The notes under the pieces: generated by a model
Databases searched by the model: none
What the model saw: only the letters and a program-made list of their open reading frames with translations
Told to the model about the DNA's origin: nothing
From: Caldisericia bacterium
GTDB lineage: Bacteria > Caldisericota > Caldisericia > B22-G15
Reading direction: 5' to 3'
Length of the DNA stretch: 64,000 bases
Assembly (NCBI GenBank): GCA_030018355.1
Contig: JASEFN010000002.1
Coordinates: forward strand, 172,699 to 236,698
Translations under genes and position numbers: made by a program
Shown: positions 24,737 through 32,672 of the stretch, one piece after another
How the letters are laid out: each line of letters starts with the position of its first letter
Numbering within the stretch: the stretch's first letter is position 1

Positions 24737-26980
24737 TTAAATATTTTTAAAAAAGAGAATTTTCTCTAATATTAAAATTGCACCCTTTTTATCTAAGGGT
24801 TTATTTTTATTTCCACATTTTGGAGAATAAATACAAGAAGGACAACCGTCTTCACATTTACAATTTTTAATTACATCATAGCCATATGTTAAAAGTTTTT
24901 CTATATAATCAAAACCCTTTTTTGAAAATCCAATTCCTCCAGGATAAGCATCATAGATAAATATTGTTGGTTTATCTGTATCAGAATGAATTGGATGTGA
25001 AAGACCTCCAAGGTCTCTTCTATCACATATTGCAATTAAAGGAAAAACTCCAATTAAAAGGTGCTCTAATGCATGAATTGATCCATTAAAATCTAAACCA
25101 TCTTTTATTATTTCTCTTTTTATTTCTTCATTTATTGTAAACCAAAGTCCTTTTGTTTCAAAAACCATTTTTGGTAAATCAAGTGAATACTCTCCAATTA
25201 AATCATTCGTAAAGTGTTTTCTTTTTTGGTATCCATAAATAAGTGAAGTTACTTCAAGATCTCCATAAAAAATTTGAATTTCTCTCTCTTTTTTATTTTC
25301 GATTGTTTTAATTATTTTTGTTGATACTAATTCAAGAGATTGTGTATAGTAATCAACCTCCTTTTTATCAAGAAAAATTTCTTTATTTCTTATATCAACT
25401 TCTCTAACAACATAAGATTCACCTTCAAAATAGTAAACTGCACCAGGATGTGCTTCAGTATAGGCTCTTCTTTCATCAATTCTTTCAAGTTCTTTTCCAT
25501 TTTCATCATATAAAATAAACTCATCTTCTTCAAAACTTCTAAGTGTTATATTTTTATGTGGAAAATTTATGACATTTGGAATAAATCTTCCATCAATCTC
25601 TTTTAATTTTTCTTCCTTTTTTAAAATTTCACAAATCTCTTTTATAAAAAACTCCTCTTTTTTTTGAATTGGTATTTCATATGATGCACATAAAATATGT
25701 TTTTTCAACAAATTTGGATTTGTTGGATCAATTATTAAATTTTCGCTTCCTTTTTCAAAAATTTCTTCTGGATGATTTACAACATATTCATTTAATGGAT
25801 CTTTGTCTGCGATAAAAATTGTGTAACCTTCTCTTTTTCTTCCTGCTCTTCCACTTTCTTGAAGAAAAGATGAAATTGTTCCAGGGTATCCCACAATTAA
25901 AACTACATCAAGTTCTCCAATATCAATTCCAAGTTCAAGCGCATTTGTCGAGATAACAAAATTTATTTCACCATGAAGAAGTTTTCTTTCAATTTCCCTT
26001 CTTCTCTCTTTTGAATATCCTGCTCTATATGGTAAAACTTTTTTTAAAAGGGTCTCGTCTAATCTCTCTTTTAAATATCTATAAAGAAGTTCTACACCTT
26101 TTCTACTTCTCATAAAAGCAATACCTCTGTAATCTGAATTTATTAATAGTTCTGTTATCCACATTGCTTCAACCAAAATTGATCTTTCGTCTGGAGTTTT
26201 AATAAAAACAAACCTCTTCTTTTTTCTTGGAGTGCCATCGCCTCTAACAATTTTAATTTTCTCTCCAAAAAGATTTTCAAAAAATTCATGAGGATTTCCA
26301 ACAGTTGCAGATGAAAAAACAAATTTAACATCTCTTTCGTAAAAATTAAAAACCCTTTTCATTCTTCTGATTAAAGATGCAACATTTGAACCAAAAACAC
26401 CATTATAGATATGTGCTTCATCAAAAACAACATATGAAAGTCTACTTATAAATCTACTCCAATTTGTGTGATATGGTAAAATTGAATAATGAATCATTTC
26501 AGGATTTGTAAATAAAATTTGTGCACTTTCTCTAATTTTTTTTCTTGATAAAAGATCTGTATCCCCATCATAAACACCTATGTTGATATCGTTGGTCAAA
26601 TTTAAAATTTGTCTCTCTTGATCTCTTGTTAATGCTTTTGTTGGATAAACATAAATTGCTCTTTCACCACTTTTTATAAATTCATAAATTGGAATGTGAA
26701 AAGATAATGTTTTTCCTGATGCAGTGGGTGAAATTATTGCTAAATTTTCTCTATTTTTTATTGATTCATAAACCTCTTTTTGATATTCATAAAAATGAGT
26801 TATTCCAAGTTTTTTTAATTTTTCTTGAATTAAATCATTTAAAAAATCTAATGAGATTAATCTTGGCTGTATTTCTTCTAATTCAATAATATTTCTTATA
26901 TTGTTTTTATAATTTTTCGATTCTATTAATTTTTCAATTAATGGGTCTTTAATTACTCTTTTCCTTTCACCCAACCCCAA
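24737..26980 (-). CDS. MrfA/YprA-like DEAD/DEAH helicase with C-terminal DUF1998 zinc region
   Basis: A 747-residue superfamily 2 helicase. Motif I SPTASGKTLSF (about residue 82), motif II DEAH (about 188), motif III SSATVGNP, and motif VI QESGRAGRKREG. The C-terminal third is a DUF1998 domain, ending in a cysteine cluster CKCEDGCPSCIYSPKC (about 710-725). Bacillus MrfA uses such a domain to repair mitomycin C lesions, so a DNA repair role is likely. Its start overlaps the membrane gene upstream by 28 bases. Confidence 0.9.
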   Translation of the reverse strand: MGLGERKRVIKDPLIEKLIESKNYKNNIRNIIELEEIQPRLISLDFLNDLIQEKLKKLGITHFYEYQKEVYESIKNRENLAIISPTASGKTLSFHIPIYEFIKSGERAIYVYPTKALTRDQERQILNLTNDINIGVYDGDTDLLSRKKIRESAQILFTNPEMIHYSILPYHTNWSRFISRLSYVVFDEAHIYNGVFGSNVASLIRRMKRVFNFYERDVKFVFSSATVGNPHEFFENLFGEKIKIVRGDGTPRKKKRFVFIKTPDERSILVEAMWITELLINSDYRGIAFMRSRKGVELLYRYLKERLDETLLKKVLPYRAGYSKERRREIERKLLHGEINFVISTNALELGIDIGELDVVLIVGYPGTISSFLQESGRAGRKREGYTIFIADKDPLNEYVVNHPEEIFEKGSENLIIDPTNPNLLKKHILCASYEIPIQKKEEFFIKEICEILKKEEKLKEIDGRFIPNVINFPHKNITLRSFEEDEFILYDENGKELERIDERRAYTEAHPGAVYYFEGESYVVREVDIRNKEIFLDKKEVDYYTQSLELVSTKIIKTIENKKEREIQIFYGDLEVTSLIYGYQKRKHFTNDLIGEYSLDLPKMVFETKGLWFTINEEIKREIIKDGLDFNGSIHALEHLLIGVFPLIAICDRRDLGGLSHPIHSDTDKPTIFIYDAYPGGIGFSKKGFDYIEKLLTYGYDVIKNCKCEDGCPSCIYSPKCGNKNKPLDKKGAILILEKILFFKNI

Positions 26981-28530: not shown

Positions 28531-28980
28531 TCAAGCAATTTTATTATCAAAATTTTTTAAAAAATTTTCATCAACTATTTCCTCTATTTTAGGTCTTAAA
28601 AAAAGGAATTTATTAGTTAGTCTTATTAATAAAATTGATAAAATTAAAAAAAGAAAGCCAAAAATAATTGAAGATATGTTTTCTCCTTTAAAATATATTT
28701 TACCAAAAATATATTCACCAAATAAAGCACCAATAAACATTGAGAGAATTGGAATTAAATAAATAATAAAAGTTAAAAAAATATACTTTTTTGATGGTAT
28801 GTTTAAAAGAACAAGATCCCCTATTTTTGCATTAACTAAATTTTCTGCTTCAACAATTTTCTCTCTTTCTCTATGAAAAAAACACTTCTCTTTACTTAAA
28901 CAACTTTCGCAATATGATCCACCAACTTCAACTAAAGAAAACTTCTCTTTTGTTCCAATAACTCTTCCAATCTCTTTCAT
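28531..28980 (-). CDS. rseC: SoxR-reducing system / RseC family membrane protein
   Basis: A 149-residue protein of the RseC/MucC family. An N-terminal beta domain contains VEVGGSYCESCLSKEKCFF (four-Cys pattern C-x2-C-x4-C), then NLVNAKIGDLVLLNI and two membrane helices (about 75-95 and 103-125). RseC works with Rnf/Rsx electron transport in some bacteria and with the sigma-E pathway in E. coli. No rnf genes are in the window. Its ribosome site (GGGGGAGG) forms one arm of a long base-paired stem in the preceding leader. Confidence 0.82.
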   Translation of the reverse strand: MKEIGRVIGTKEKFSLVEVGGSYCESCLSKEKCFFHREREKIVEAENLVNAKIGDLVLLNIPSKKYIFLTFIIYLIPILSMFIGALFGEYIFGKIYFKGENISSIIFGFLFLILSILLIRLTNKFLFLRPKIEEIVDENFLKNFDNKIA

Positions 28981-28985
28981 AATAC

Positions 28986-29146
28986 CTCCCCCAGGCTACG
29001 TGAGTAAGGATAGGATTGAACCTGCATCCACGCAGGTGGGATTCTCATTTATAACTCTCCATCCCGGAAGAAGTTATAAAGTATTGAATCCCATTTTTTT
29101 CTGTGTTGGCCCAACCCATCCTTTTCAACACGATAGCCCGAGGGTC
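28986..29146 (-). ncRNA. Structured RNA, rseC leader or 6S-like RNA
   Basis: About 160 bases that fold into a long rod when read on the minus strand. Outer stem: CCCTCGGGCTA-T-CGTG with CACGTAGCCTGGGGG. Second stem: AAGGATGGGTT with AATCC-T-ATCCTT. A small hairpin CCTGC/GCAGG lies on the 3' side. Apical stem: GGGATTC/GAATCCC with inner TTTATAACT/AGTTATAAA. Several pairs are G-U on the minus strand but would be A-C on the plus strand, which supports minus-strand sense. A promoter lies just upstream and the 3' arm contains the rseC ribosome site. A long rod with an internal bubble and a 3'-side hairpin recalls 6S RNA, but the fusion to a ribosome site suggests a regulatory leader. I match no known riboswitch consensus. 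Confidence 0.65.
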
Positions 29147-29152
29147 AATTAA

Positions 29153-29181
29153 ATAATATCAAATTTTTTCATTTTATTCAA
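29153..29181 (-). promoter_or_regulatory. Promoter of the structured RNA and rseC
   Basis: Minus-strand TTGAAT (29181-29176), 17-base spacer, TGA-TATTAT (-10 at 29158-29153). The expected first base (G near 29146) is the foot of the outer RNA stem. Confidence 0.65.
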
Positions 29182-29233: not shown

Positions 29234-29968
29234 ATGAAAGAATGGTTTTTAGATTTTTTTGACGAAAATTATCTTACTCTTTATTTAAAAAAACAAAGAG
29301 AAGAACTTACTTTAAAACAGGTTAATTTTATTATCAATTCCTTATCTCTTAAAAAGGGAATGAAAATTTTGGATTTAGGATGTGGAATTGGGAGACATAT
29401 TATTGAATTGGGGAAAAGGGGATTTTTTGGAGTAGGAGTTGATTTTAATGAAAAATATATTGATATTGCAAATAAATTAAAAGAAGGTCTTCAAAATGTC
29501 AACTTTATAAAAATGGATATGAGAGAAATTTCTTTTTTAGAAGAATTTGATGCAGTTCTTTCTATGTGGACAAGTTTTGGTTATTTTTCTGATGAAGAAA
29601 ACCTCTCTTTACTTAAGAAAATTAACCAATCACTAAAATGTGGTGGAAAATTTTTGTTAGATATTGAAAATATTTTTTATATGCTAAAAAATCTTCCAAA
29701 AGAGAGGTGGGAAAGAGAAGGAGATTTTTATATTCTTGAAAGAAATGAATTAAATTATAAAATTAGTAGATTGAAAACTGAAAGAGTTATTATAAAAGAG
29801 GGAACAATTAAAACATATACAAGAATTTATAGAATTTTTACTTTAAAAGAGATTGAACATTATTTAAATAAATCATATTTTAAAATATTAAATATATATG
29901 GTGGATATGACGGTGAAGAATATTCAAATCAATCAAAGAGATTGATAGTCATCTCAGAAAAGTTATAA
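29234..29968 (+). CDS. Class I SAM-dependent methyltransferase
   Basis: A 244-residue Rossmann-fold methyltransferase. Motif I is MKILDLGCGIGRHIIELGKR (about residues 39-58), followed by VGVDFNEKYID (acidic ribose ligand), FIKMDMREI and AVLSMWTSFGYFSDEE. The C-terminal part (YTRIYRIFTLKEIEHYLN) is like small-molecule methyltransferases. The substrate is unknown. It is read divergently from rseC, and its 3' end overlaps the 3' end of comEC on the other strand by 40 bases. Confidence 0.85.
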   Translation: MKEWFLDFFDENYLTLYLKKQREELTLKQVNFIINSLSLKKGMKILDLGCGIGRHIIELGKRGFFGVGVDFNEKYIDIANKLKEGLQNVNFIKMDMREISFLEEFDAVLSMWTSFGYFSDEENLSLLKKINQSLKCGGKFLLDIENIFYMLKNLPKERWEREGDFYILERNELNYKISRLKTERVIIKEGTIKTYTRIYRIFTLKEIEHYLNKSYFKILNIYGGYDGEEYSNQSKRLIVISEKL

Positions 29969-32106
29969 TTTTTTATTTTTAAGTTATTTTTAAAAATTTC
30001 TATCTCAATCGCACCATCTTTATCAGTTCTAAAAATTTTTGAATTTAAAGATAAAAGTGAAGAAATTATTTCATCTGAAGGATGATTAAAATTGTTTGGT
30101 CCAACAGATATAATTGATATTTTAGGGTTTAAAAGTAAATAAAATTTTAAATTAAACGAGTTTACACTTCCATGGTGAGGGACTTTAAAAATGAAAGTAT
30201 CTTTTAGTTTATCTGGATAAAGTGAGTATATCTCTTCAATTACTTCATTTTCAATATCTCCACTCAAAAGAAATTTATAATTTCTAAATTCACCTATTAA
30301 ACATAGTGAATTATTGTTATCATTTGCTCTTAAATAGTCTTTCCCCCCTTTATATGGATTTAAAACATAAAACTTTAAGCCATCTATTTCAAAACTATCT
30401 CCTCTTTTTAATTTTTCCTTTTTTACATTATTTTCTTTAAGAATTTTTATTAAATCTAATCCATAAGAGTTTAAATTTATATCTGGATAAAGCAAATTTT
30501 TAATTTTTTCTCTTTTTACAATATGAAAAAGACCCTCAATATGATCGCTATCCTCATGGGTAAAAATAAGATAATCAATTTCATTGATTCCTAATCTTTT
30601 TAATGAATTTAAAACTCTAATTCCAGGACTTCTCTTTTCTTTATAAAAAGTCCCACCTCCATCAACTAAAATCGTATAATTTTGAGGTGTTTTTAAAAGA
30701 ATTGAATCTCCCTCTCCAACATCAAAAAATATTATTTTTAATCTTCCAAATTCATTAATATAAGAGTAAGAGAGTGCAAATAAAGATAAAACCAAAAAAA
30801 TAAATAAAAGTTTCTTGGCTTTTTTAAATTCAATTTCTTTAAATAGTATTAAAATAATAAGAAAATAGAGAAGAAAATAGAAAATAATAAAAAGAAAATT
30901 AGGCTTTTTAACTCCAATTGAAGATAAAGGTAAATTAGCAAAAAATGTAATTACTTTCTCAGTTATAAAAGAAATTGGTTTAAGAATTAAAATTATCTCT
31001 TTAATTAATAAAGAAAGAAGTGTAAATAAAAATATAATTGGAAGAAAAATTGATATTAAAGGAACAATTAATAAATTTGAAATAAGTGTTACAAATGAGA
31101 AGAACGGAAAAAAGTATATAAGAATTGGAAAAGAACCAAATGTTATAAAAGATGGAGTAATCAAAAAGTTTAAAATGTTCTTTTTAAATTTACCTGAAAT
31201 TGTAATTATTGAAAGGGTTGATAAAAATGTTAATAAAAAAGATGGTGAAATTATATTTAATGGATTTATTAAAATAAGAAGAATTGCTGAAAATAAGAGA
31301 GTGTTCAATATATCAATTTCTTTTTTAAATAACTTTCCTATTTGACAAAAAGAAAACATAAAAAATGCTCTAACTGCAGAAACAGGAAATAGAATAATAG
31401 AAAGATATATAAAAAGAATTATTATAACAAGTAATGGATCAAGAAAAATTGAGAAAAATCCTCCTAAAATTGCAAGATGGATTCCAGAAATTGCAAAAAG
31501 GTGAATTACTCCACTATATTTAAATAGATCTTTAACCTCACTATCAACGTTTTTTCCACCAAGAATAAATCCTTCAATAAACTCAGATAATTTTCCAAGA
31601 GAATTAAAATTTTCATAAATTTTTTCTCTTATTCTTGATATTAAACCATCATTTCTTTTTATTATTTCTACTTTATTAGCATAAAATTTACTTCTTATTC
31701 CCTCGGTTAATAAATAAATATAATAACTTTCTTCTCCAGGATTACCTTTAGAATCATTTAAAAAATAACCCTCCAAAGAGACAAAATCACCTGGTTTTAT
31801 TGAAAAGGTTTTATTTTTATAAATTAAAATTTTTCCAAAGTCAGTTTTTAATATAAAATTATTTTCTTTCTCATAAGAACAAACAACTCCATTTAAATTA
31901 TTTTCATTAAGTTGAAGAAATTTAGGTGTTCTATAAAAATAAATTCTTATGACTCCTAAAAGTATAAAAATTATGTAAAAAATTAAAAAGTCTTTTCTTT
32001 TTATAAAAATAATTGGAATAAAAAGAAATAATATTAAAATAGGAAATTTAATAGAGAAAAGAGATATAAGAAAGAAAAGAAAAATTAATTTAAATAGTTT
32101 CCTCAA
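29929..32106 (-). CDS. comEC: ComEC/Rec2 DNA uptake channel
   Basis: A 725-residue membrane protein. N-terminal helices and an OB-like segment (about 60-150, FVSLEGYF), the competence domain (FIEGFILGGKN, then FAISGIHLAILGG), and a C-terminal metallo-beta-lactamase-like domain with FFDVGEGDSILLKTP, FTHEDSDHIEG (HxxDxDH) and VPHHGS. In competent bacteria it carries single-stranded DNA across the inner membrane; the C-terminal domain may be the nuclease. It overlaps comEA by four bases. Confidence 0.93.
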   Translation of the reverse strand: MRKLFKLIFLFFLISLFSIKFPILILFLFIPIIFIKRKDFLIFYIIFILLGVIRIYFYRTPKFLQLNENNLNGVVCSYEKENNFILKTDFGKILIYKNKTFSIKPGDFVSLEGYFLNDSKGNPGEESYYIYLLTEGIRSKFYANKVEIIKRNDGLISRIREKIYENFNSLGKLSEFIEGFILGGKNVDSEVKDLFKYSGVIHLFAISGIHLAILGGFFSIFLDPLLVIIILFIYLSIILFPVSAVRAFFMFSFCQIGKLFKKEIDILNTLLFSAILLILINPLNIISPSFLLTFLSTLSIITISGKFKKNILNFLITPSFITFGSFPILIYFFPFFSFVTLISNLLIVPLISIFLPIIFLFTLLSLLIKEIILILKPISFITEKVITFFANLPLSSIGVKKPNFLFIIFYFLLYFLIILILFKEIEFKKAKKLLFIFLVLSLFALSYSYINEFGRLKIIFFDVGEGDSILLKTPQNYTILVDGGGTFYKEKRSPGIRVLNSLKRLGINEIDYLIFTHEDSDHIEGLFHIVKREKIKNLLYPDINLNSYGLDLIKILKENNVKKEKLKRGDSFEIDGLKFYVLNPYKGGKDYLRANDNNNSLCLIGEFRNYKFLLSGDIENEVIEEIYSLYPDKLKDTFIFKVPHHGSVNSFNLKFYLLLNPKISIISVGPNNFNHPSDEIISSLLSLNSKIFRTDKDGAIEIEIFKNNLKIKNYNFSEMTINLFD

Positions 32107-32672
32107 GGACCAACTGTTATTAAATTTTTAATTGCTTCAAACTTTTTATCACCTATTCCCGATACTTTCTTAATATCTTCAATTGTTTGAAAATATCCAT
32201 TAGTTTCTCTATAATCTATAATTTTTTGAGCAAGAGTTGGTCCAATTCCTGGAAGAGACTCAAGTTCTTCTTTTGATGCAGTATTTATATTTATTAGATT
32301 TGATTTTGATTGAGAAGATACGGTTCCTGATTGAGAAATTGATGTCTCATTTTCATTTATGCTCTTTTTCGAAAAAATTATTATCTTCTCTCCATCTATT
32401 AACTTTTTGGATAGATTAATTGAATTTAAATCTGCATTTTCAGTAAGACCACCTGCTTTTTCAACAAGTTGAAAAACCCTATCTCCATTTTCCATTTCAT
32501 ATACACCAGGATATTTTATCTCACCACTTATCTGAACATAAATTTTTTCTTTTGTTTCCACAAAAGATAAATTTTCTTTTGTACTCAATTTTGATGAATA
32601 AAATCCAACAATAATTCCTAAAATAAAAGAAATTATTGAAATAATTATCCATTCTCTTTTTTCTAAAACCAA
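32103..32672 (-). CDS. comEA: ComEA family DNA-binding protein
   Basis: A 189-residue protein. One N-terminal anchor (about 9-27), a SLBB/beta-grasp domain (VQISGEIKYPGVYEMENGDR), a Ser/Gln-rich linker, and a C-terminal pair of helix-hairpin-helix motifs (INTASKEELESLPGIGPTLA and IKKVSGIGDKK). It binds incoming double-stranded DNA at the outer face of the membrane and hands it to ComEC. Located 18 bases after argF and overlapping comEC. Confidence 0.94.
   Translation of the reverse strand: MVLEKREWIIISIISFILGIIVGFYSSKLSTKENLSFVETKEKIYVQISGEIKYPGVYEMENGDRVFQLVEKAGGLTENADLNSINLSKKLIDGEKIIIFSKKSINENETSISQSGTVSSQSKSNLININTASKEELESLPGIGPTLAQKIIDYRETNGYFQTIEDIKKVSGIGDKKFEAIKNLITVGP

Follow-up and report, generated by a model that had tools for sequence, protein, structure and literature searches.

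A 6S RNA gene in front of rseC in a Caldisericia bacterium and some of its relatives

Introduction

Directly upstream of rseC in a Caldisericia bacterium lies a stretch of DNA that was described in an earlier note as encoding, on the minus strand, a promoter-driven structured RNA of no known class, and which raises the question of what this RNA is and whether it acts upon the gene that follows. Two readings were offered in that note, namely a translational riboswitch that controls the ribosome site of rseC and, with regard to the rod-like shape with its bubble, a 6S RNA. The 6S RNAs are a well-known family whose members jam the bacterial RNA polymerase. The rseC gene concerned (28531..28980, minus strand, 149 aa) is identified by PF04246 RseC_MucC (E 1.2e-22, 80.7 bits, cut-off 24.4) and is the sole copy in the genome to which the window belongs, whereby the window denotes the whole analysed stretch of 64,000 nucleotides.

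Identification of the RNA

The 6S family model RF00013 matches positions 29148-28983 of the minus strand over its full length (model positions 1-187) with 51.4 bits and E = 1.1e-9, which exceeds the gathering score of 46.4 bits by only 5 bits, and within the whole genome this locus is the only RF00013 match. The family match, the single copy, the class-wide conservation, the covarying stems and the conserved central-bubble sequence together support that the RNA (28983..29148, minus strand) is almost certainly 6S RNA, encoded by the ssrS gene of the Caldisericia bacterium and transcribed from a promoter of its own. It is thus an ordinary member of an already known family, and the earlier statement that no known class could be recognised was mistaken. 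The 6S alternative of the same note was borne out by the full-length match above the gathering score, by conservation and by covariation; the Rfam/Infernal search proposed therein found the 6S match, which according to the note itself removes the riboswitch idea.

An Rfam scan of the whole window with fast filters and gathering cut-off returned no matches and missed the 6S locus, and likewise the strict-filter RF00013 scan of the class missed the window genome (G000). As RF00013 reaches the score given above under laxer filters, both misses look like filter losses, and the case illustrates how a fast-filter scan overlooks a genuine family member. Matches to OmrA-B, SCARNA3 and SOX2OT stayed far under their respective gathering scores and were attributed to chance, and ARAGORN identified neither tmRNA nor tRNA in the window.

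Fold and conserved parts

The 166 nt of the matched RNA fold with -69.9 kcal/mol as compared to -45.1 +/- 4.3 kcal/mol for 200 dinucleotide shuffles, none of which was as low (z -5.76), which documents that the structured RNA described before is real; for the 201-nt interval of the earlier note, z was -6.73. Folding is less favourable for the plus strand (-59.2 kcal/mol, z -5.27), in agreement with the minus-strand sense assigned earlier.

The closing stem is formed by the 5' arm CCCUCGGGCUA (29134..29144, minus strand), continued by CGUG at 29132-29129, and by the 3' arm UAGCCUGGGGG (28988..28998, minus strand), preceded by CACG at 29002-28999, with both arms being defined by fold and covariation and with the GGGG of the 3' arm being invariant (21/21 aligned sequences). 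Next to it the P2 helix is located on the minus strand (about 29123-29113 with 29016-29005), and the central bubble has a 5' side (29093..29112, minus strand) that is mostly unpaired from A42 on and contains the conserved block GGGCCAACAC, nearly invariant in the alignment of 21 loci. Opposite to this, the 3'-central-bubble hairpin CCUGC-GUGGAU-GCAGG (29021..29036, minus strand) was identified by alignment to the RF00013 consensus; with this hairpin enforced the fold has -69.1 kcal/mol, as against -69.9 kcal/mol for the free fold, and judged by eye from the alignment a hairpin of other sequence is kept at this place in families f2 (CUGC..GCAG) and f3 (GUCC..GGAC). The internal (apical) stem and its loop, with GGGAUUC/GAAUCCC at the base (29038..29092, minus strand), again follow from fold and covariation. 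The 3'-side hairpin, the bubble and the apical stem of the earlier note hence correspond to the 3'-central-bubble hairpin, the central bubble and the internal stem of 6S RNA. These parts and the own promoter are shared with RF00013 and its representatives ssrS of E. coli and bsrA of B. subtilis, as is the closing stem, with the window RNA being short in comparison (166 nt versus 187 model positions). The small 3'-bubble hairpin, which is predicted in the free window RNA, is reported as a feature of B. subtilis 6S-1 and not of the E. coli RNA (PMC8876501).

Covariation was analysed with 31 matches (26 distinct) that were aligned to R1, a class model built from 21 aligned loci, with near-identical or duplicate ones omitted, and an RNAalifold structure. 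Within the stems 92.0% of 624 cells hold standard pairs, as compared to 39.6-48.1% when partners were slid by 1-3 columns, 13 of the 24 stem pairs show a change of both partners in at least one sequence, and covariation was scored at 0.426 versus 0.211 for shuffles, figures which all lean toward structure since the alignment was fitted to it. The number of further pair types did not exceed that of the shuffles (37 versus 35.6; 156 of 500). In the class alignment, 93.7% of the closing-stem cells are paired and 8/17 of its pairs changed on both sides, as did all five pairs at the base of the internal stem. The closing and internal stems around the central bubble are thus kept by compensatory change, and the covariation analysis suggested earlier came out in favour of the structure.

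Promoter and probable read-through into rseC

In front of the RNA, a consensus scan identified a sigma-70-type promoter (29153..29181, minus strand) with the -35 box TTGAAT (29181-29176), a spacing of 17 nt and the -10 box TATTAT (29158-29153), the latter being preceded by TG. Transcription from this promoter would begin a few nucleotides ahead of the first stem, at a predicted start of about 29146-29144. The same scan yielded 12 promoter-like sites in a 1-kb stretch where 5.2 were expected, and taken alone it is therefore weak evidence; inspection by eye revealed similar AT-rich boxes at the equivalent position in the family relatives, which agrees with the promoter reported in the earlier note.

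Between 28400 and 29400, terminator-like sites were absent from the minus strand. As the closing stem and the start codon of rseC are 7 nt apart, with no terminator found in between, the primary transcript probably continues into rseC. Judged from this spacing, such a read-through transcript may be processed, with mature 6S RNA being cut out of it as for ssrS in the 5' UTR of ygfA. The gammaproteobacterial ssrS-ygfA arrangement, described for Coxiella (PMC4064990), is alike in that the 6S gene lies within the 5' UTR of a protein-coding gene and differs in the downstream gene, which here is rseC or a DUF948-like/YtxH operon instead of ygfA.

Distribution within the class and phylum

With strict filters RF00013 gave matches in 27 of the 49 genomes of the class, which exceeded the cut-off in 14 and stayed under it in 13 and thereby left 35/49 without a match over the cut-off; in the family relatives of the window genome it scored 55.5, 43.7 and 41.7 bits (three genomes) and 42.0 bits in a fourth. 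The class model R1 matched 49 of the 54 phylum genomes at E <= 0.001, a count that includes the 21 training sequences, which match by construction. A single match was obtained in 48 of these genomes and two in G040, where the second one is partial and located at a contig end. The five genomes of family f7, which stand outside the class and outside the training set, match R1 with E 8.4e-16 to 1.8e-11, and so do several f2, f3, f4 and f5 genomes that did not contribute to the training set. A scan for a 6S-like DNA pattern revealed at least 117 stretches, and the 80 loci listed among them, 76 of which lie outside the class, all match R1 at E <= 0.01; as the pattern had been designed to resemble 6S RNA, these loci are not an independent test. 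In the NCBI taxonomy, Cryosericum is placed in a separate phylum within the Caldisericota/Cryosericota group.

Among the 54 phylum genomes, the R1 search found nothing in G011, G015, G012, G020 and G027, and in G012 and G020 RF00013 gave no match at E <= 1 either. Without filters, R1 aligned over its full length in the latter two, directly upstream of rseC, with insignificant scores (6.3 and 8.2 bits; E 0.45 and 0.14). By eye, both sequences hold TATAAT followed by CCCTGCG and a run of G at the end, and they look like diverged 6S RNAs, which would be located in the two f5 genomes at 449-625 of L175 (minus strand) and 1314-1490 of L176 (plus strand). The gene order, i.e., 6S followed by rseC or by a DUF948-like/YtxH pair, hence provides a search handle, which led to these two weak candidates where the models failed. 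6S RNA is now filled in for a thinly studied phylum in which RF00013 often falls below its cut-off.

Gene neighbourhood

The gene downstream of the 6S RNA was examined in 47 loci, with G030 and G044 being omitted as their 6S RNA is located at a contig end. According to PF04246 coordinates, rseC comes next in all 21 loci of families f1 (5), f2 (13), f5 (2) and f6 (1). In the loci of f3 (18) and f4 (3) a small membrane protein resembling DUF948 comes next, followed by a YtxH-like protein; the two DUF948-like proteins that were tested reached 35.8 and 19.9 bits, below the Pfam cut-off of 37.2, and the YtxH-like protein of one f3 example reached 71.0 bits. In 16 of the 18 f3 genomes rseC is located elsewhere, e.g., about 22 kb away in G018, which is presumably Caldisericum exile. 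The PF04246 search revealed no rseC in f4 or f7 (5 genomes each), and in the five f7 loci the 6S RNA is followed by neither rseC nor a DUF948-like gene. Where f2 loci extend far enough, the DUF948-like and YtxH genes follow rseC, and this order suggests that 6S-rseC-DUF948-YtxH may be the older arrangement. In f3 loci (L030, L031 and others), a gene for a GTP-binding-like protein was by eye often seen after the DUF948-like/YtxH pair. Behind rseC, the window encodes a DUF4388 protein (PF14332, 27664-28488, minus strand), and the same protein follows rseC in 5/5 f1 genomes, the domain match having been obtained for the window.

Conservation of the 6S neighbourhood at family level is likewise described for rarA-6S-uspA of lactic acid bacteria (PMC8414754), where the neighbours are different ones and where a terminator is reported to follow 6S RNA in most species. 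A literature search found nothing that joins 6S RNA with rseC or Caldiserica, whereby the main 6S surveys lay outside this search and the linkage may hence be in print, and for the phylum nothing was found on small RNAs of Caldisericum or Cryosericum.

The ribosome site of rseC and alternative readings

The Shine-Dalgarno site of rseC, GGGAGGU (28984..28990, minus strand; anti-SD duplex of -11.1 kcal/mol for GGGAGGUA), has a mean unpaired probability of 0.59. The earlier claim that it is held by the 3' arm of the outer stem thus applies to its first three G, which are paired, and fails for AGGU, which is free. A comparison of 12 leaders placed the ribosome site within the 6S stem in four, all from genus g1, the genus of the window, where the start codon follows the 6S model match at a distance of 2-6 nt and the best anti-SD stretch is situated inside the closing stem or overlaps with it (mean unpaired probability 0.59 for the window and 0.06, 0.16 and 0.12 for its three relatives). 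In G004, which belongs to the same family, the best site is free (0.94), and in the seven leaders from other families it resides in the spacer after the 6S RNA or just touches the model end, often being partly paired with other sequence (0.26-0.62). The overlap of Shine-Dalgarno site and closing stem is hence specific to the genus, and partial in the window. A translational riboswitch of unknown class, which would hide and free this site by means of a competing GTGTTG/CAACAC helix, draws some support from the first G being placed in the closing stem and from the largely paired sites of the three relatives. It is rendered highly improbable by the full 6S match, by the confinement of the overlap to one genus and by family f3, which keeps the RNA although its next gene is not rseC. 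As to the competing helix, the 6 bp complementarity does exist in the window, as had been noted, yet across the alignment its cells are paired no more often than in shuffles (67.9% versus 67.3%; 34.6% for the two inner pairs). The full 6 bp were found in the window and L003 only, by an unaligned count in which at least three rows (L026, L027 and L031) are mis-anchored, an earlier GTG having been taken. On the basis of the aligned comparison, a riboswitch using this helix as its switch was rejected.

A further reading is a second role in cis, in which the 6S RNA at the same time serves as the rseC leader of the genus and its folding or maturation lowers rseC translation, with the cut removing the Shine-Dalgarno site. 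The short distance to the start codon and the location of the best anti-SD stretch in the four g1 genomes speak for it; the lack of conservation beyond the genus speaks against it, and the overlap could simply have arisen as the spacer became shorter, given that the 3' end of the 6S RNA is rich in G throughout. This cis role is considered unlikely. Its stricter form, according to which 6S RNA and rseC mRNA are fused so tightly in this genus that each transcript becomes either mature 6S RNA or translatable rseC message and not both, is likewise considered unlikely; if true, it would tie the amount of an envelope or redox protein to that of a polymerase regulator. Finally, chance structure, or a terminator that serves the plus strand between divergent genes, can practically be dismissed: one terminator-like site does occur on the plus strand (29027-29040; 0.4 expected), but the methyltransferase gene (29234-29968, plus strand) begins only past this site and is oriented in the direction leading away from it, and fold z-score, covariation and family match all point to the minus strand.

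Proposed mode of action

For 6S RNAs elsewhere, the literature (PMC8876501) describes a rod whose central bubble mimics an open promoter and whose 5' bubble side is the template on which RNA polymerase makes a short product RNA, upon which the P2 helix is unwound and the complex dissociates. By analogy, the 6S RNA identified here would mimic an open promoter and occupy the housekeeping RNA polymerase as growth slows, and would be set free once a short product RNA has been transcribed from the 5' bubble side. Of the corresponding parts, those present are the bubble, P2, the 3'-bubble hairpin and a conserved CCAACAC template; the 5' bubble stretch is the predicted template, with copying expected to start at C44 (29105) or C46 (29103) and the product accordingly predicted to begin with GUUGG or GUGUUGG. 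When the template was held unpaired in the fold, the closing stem stayed intact and the 3'-bubble hairpin was completed, so release by product RNA is not expected to open the ribosome site of rseC. Under the same constraint, a helix of the B. subtilis 6S-1 type, which collapses the central bubble, was absent in the one energy model used, which is no proof of its absence.

Further genes within the window

Two further loci on the minus strand of the window were recorded. The DEAD-box helicase at 24737-26980 carries an MrfA zinc-binding domain (PF09369) and is by its domains a repair helicase of the MrfA type. At 29929-32672 a competence pair is located, in which a ComEA-like SLBB/HHH protein precedes a ComEC-like protein (PF03772 plus metallo-beta-lactamase), and which by its domain content suggests that genes for DNA uptake are present in this lineage.
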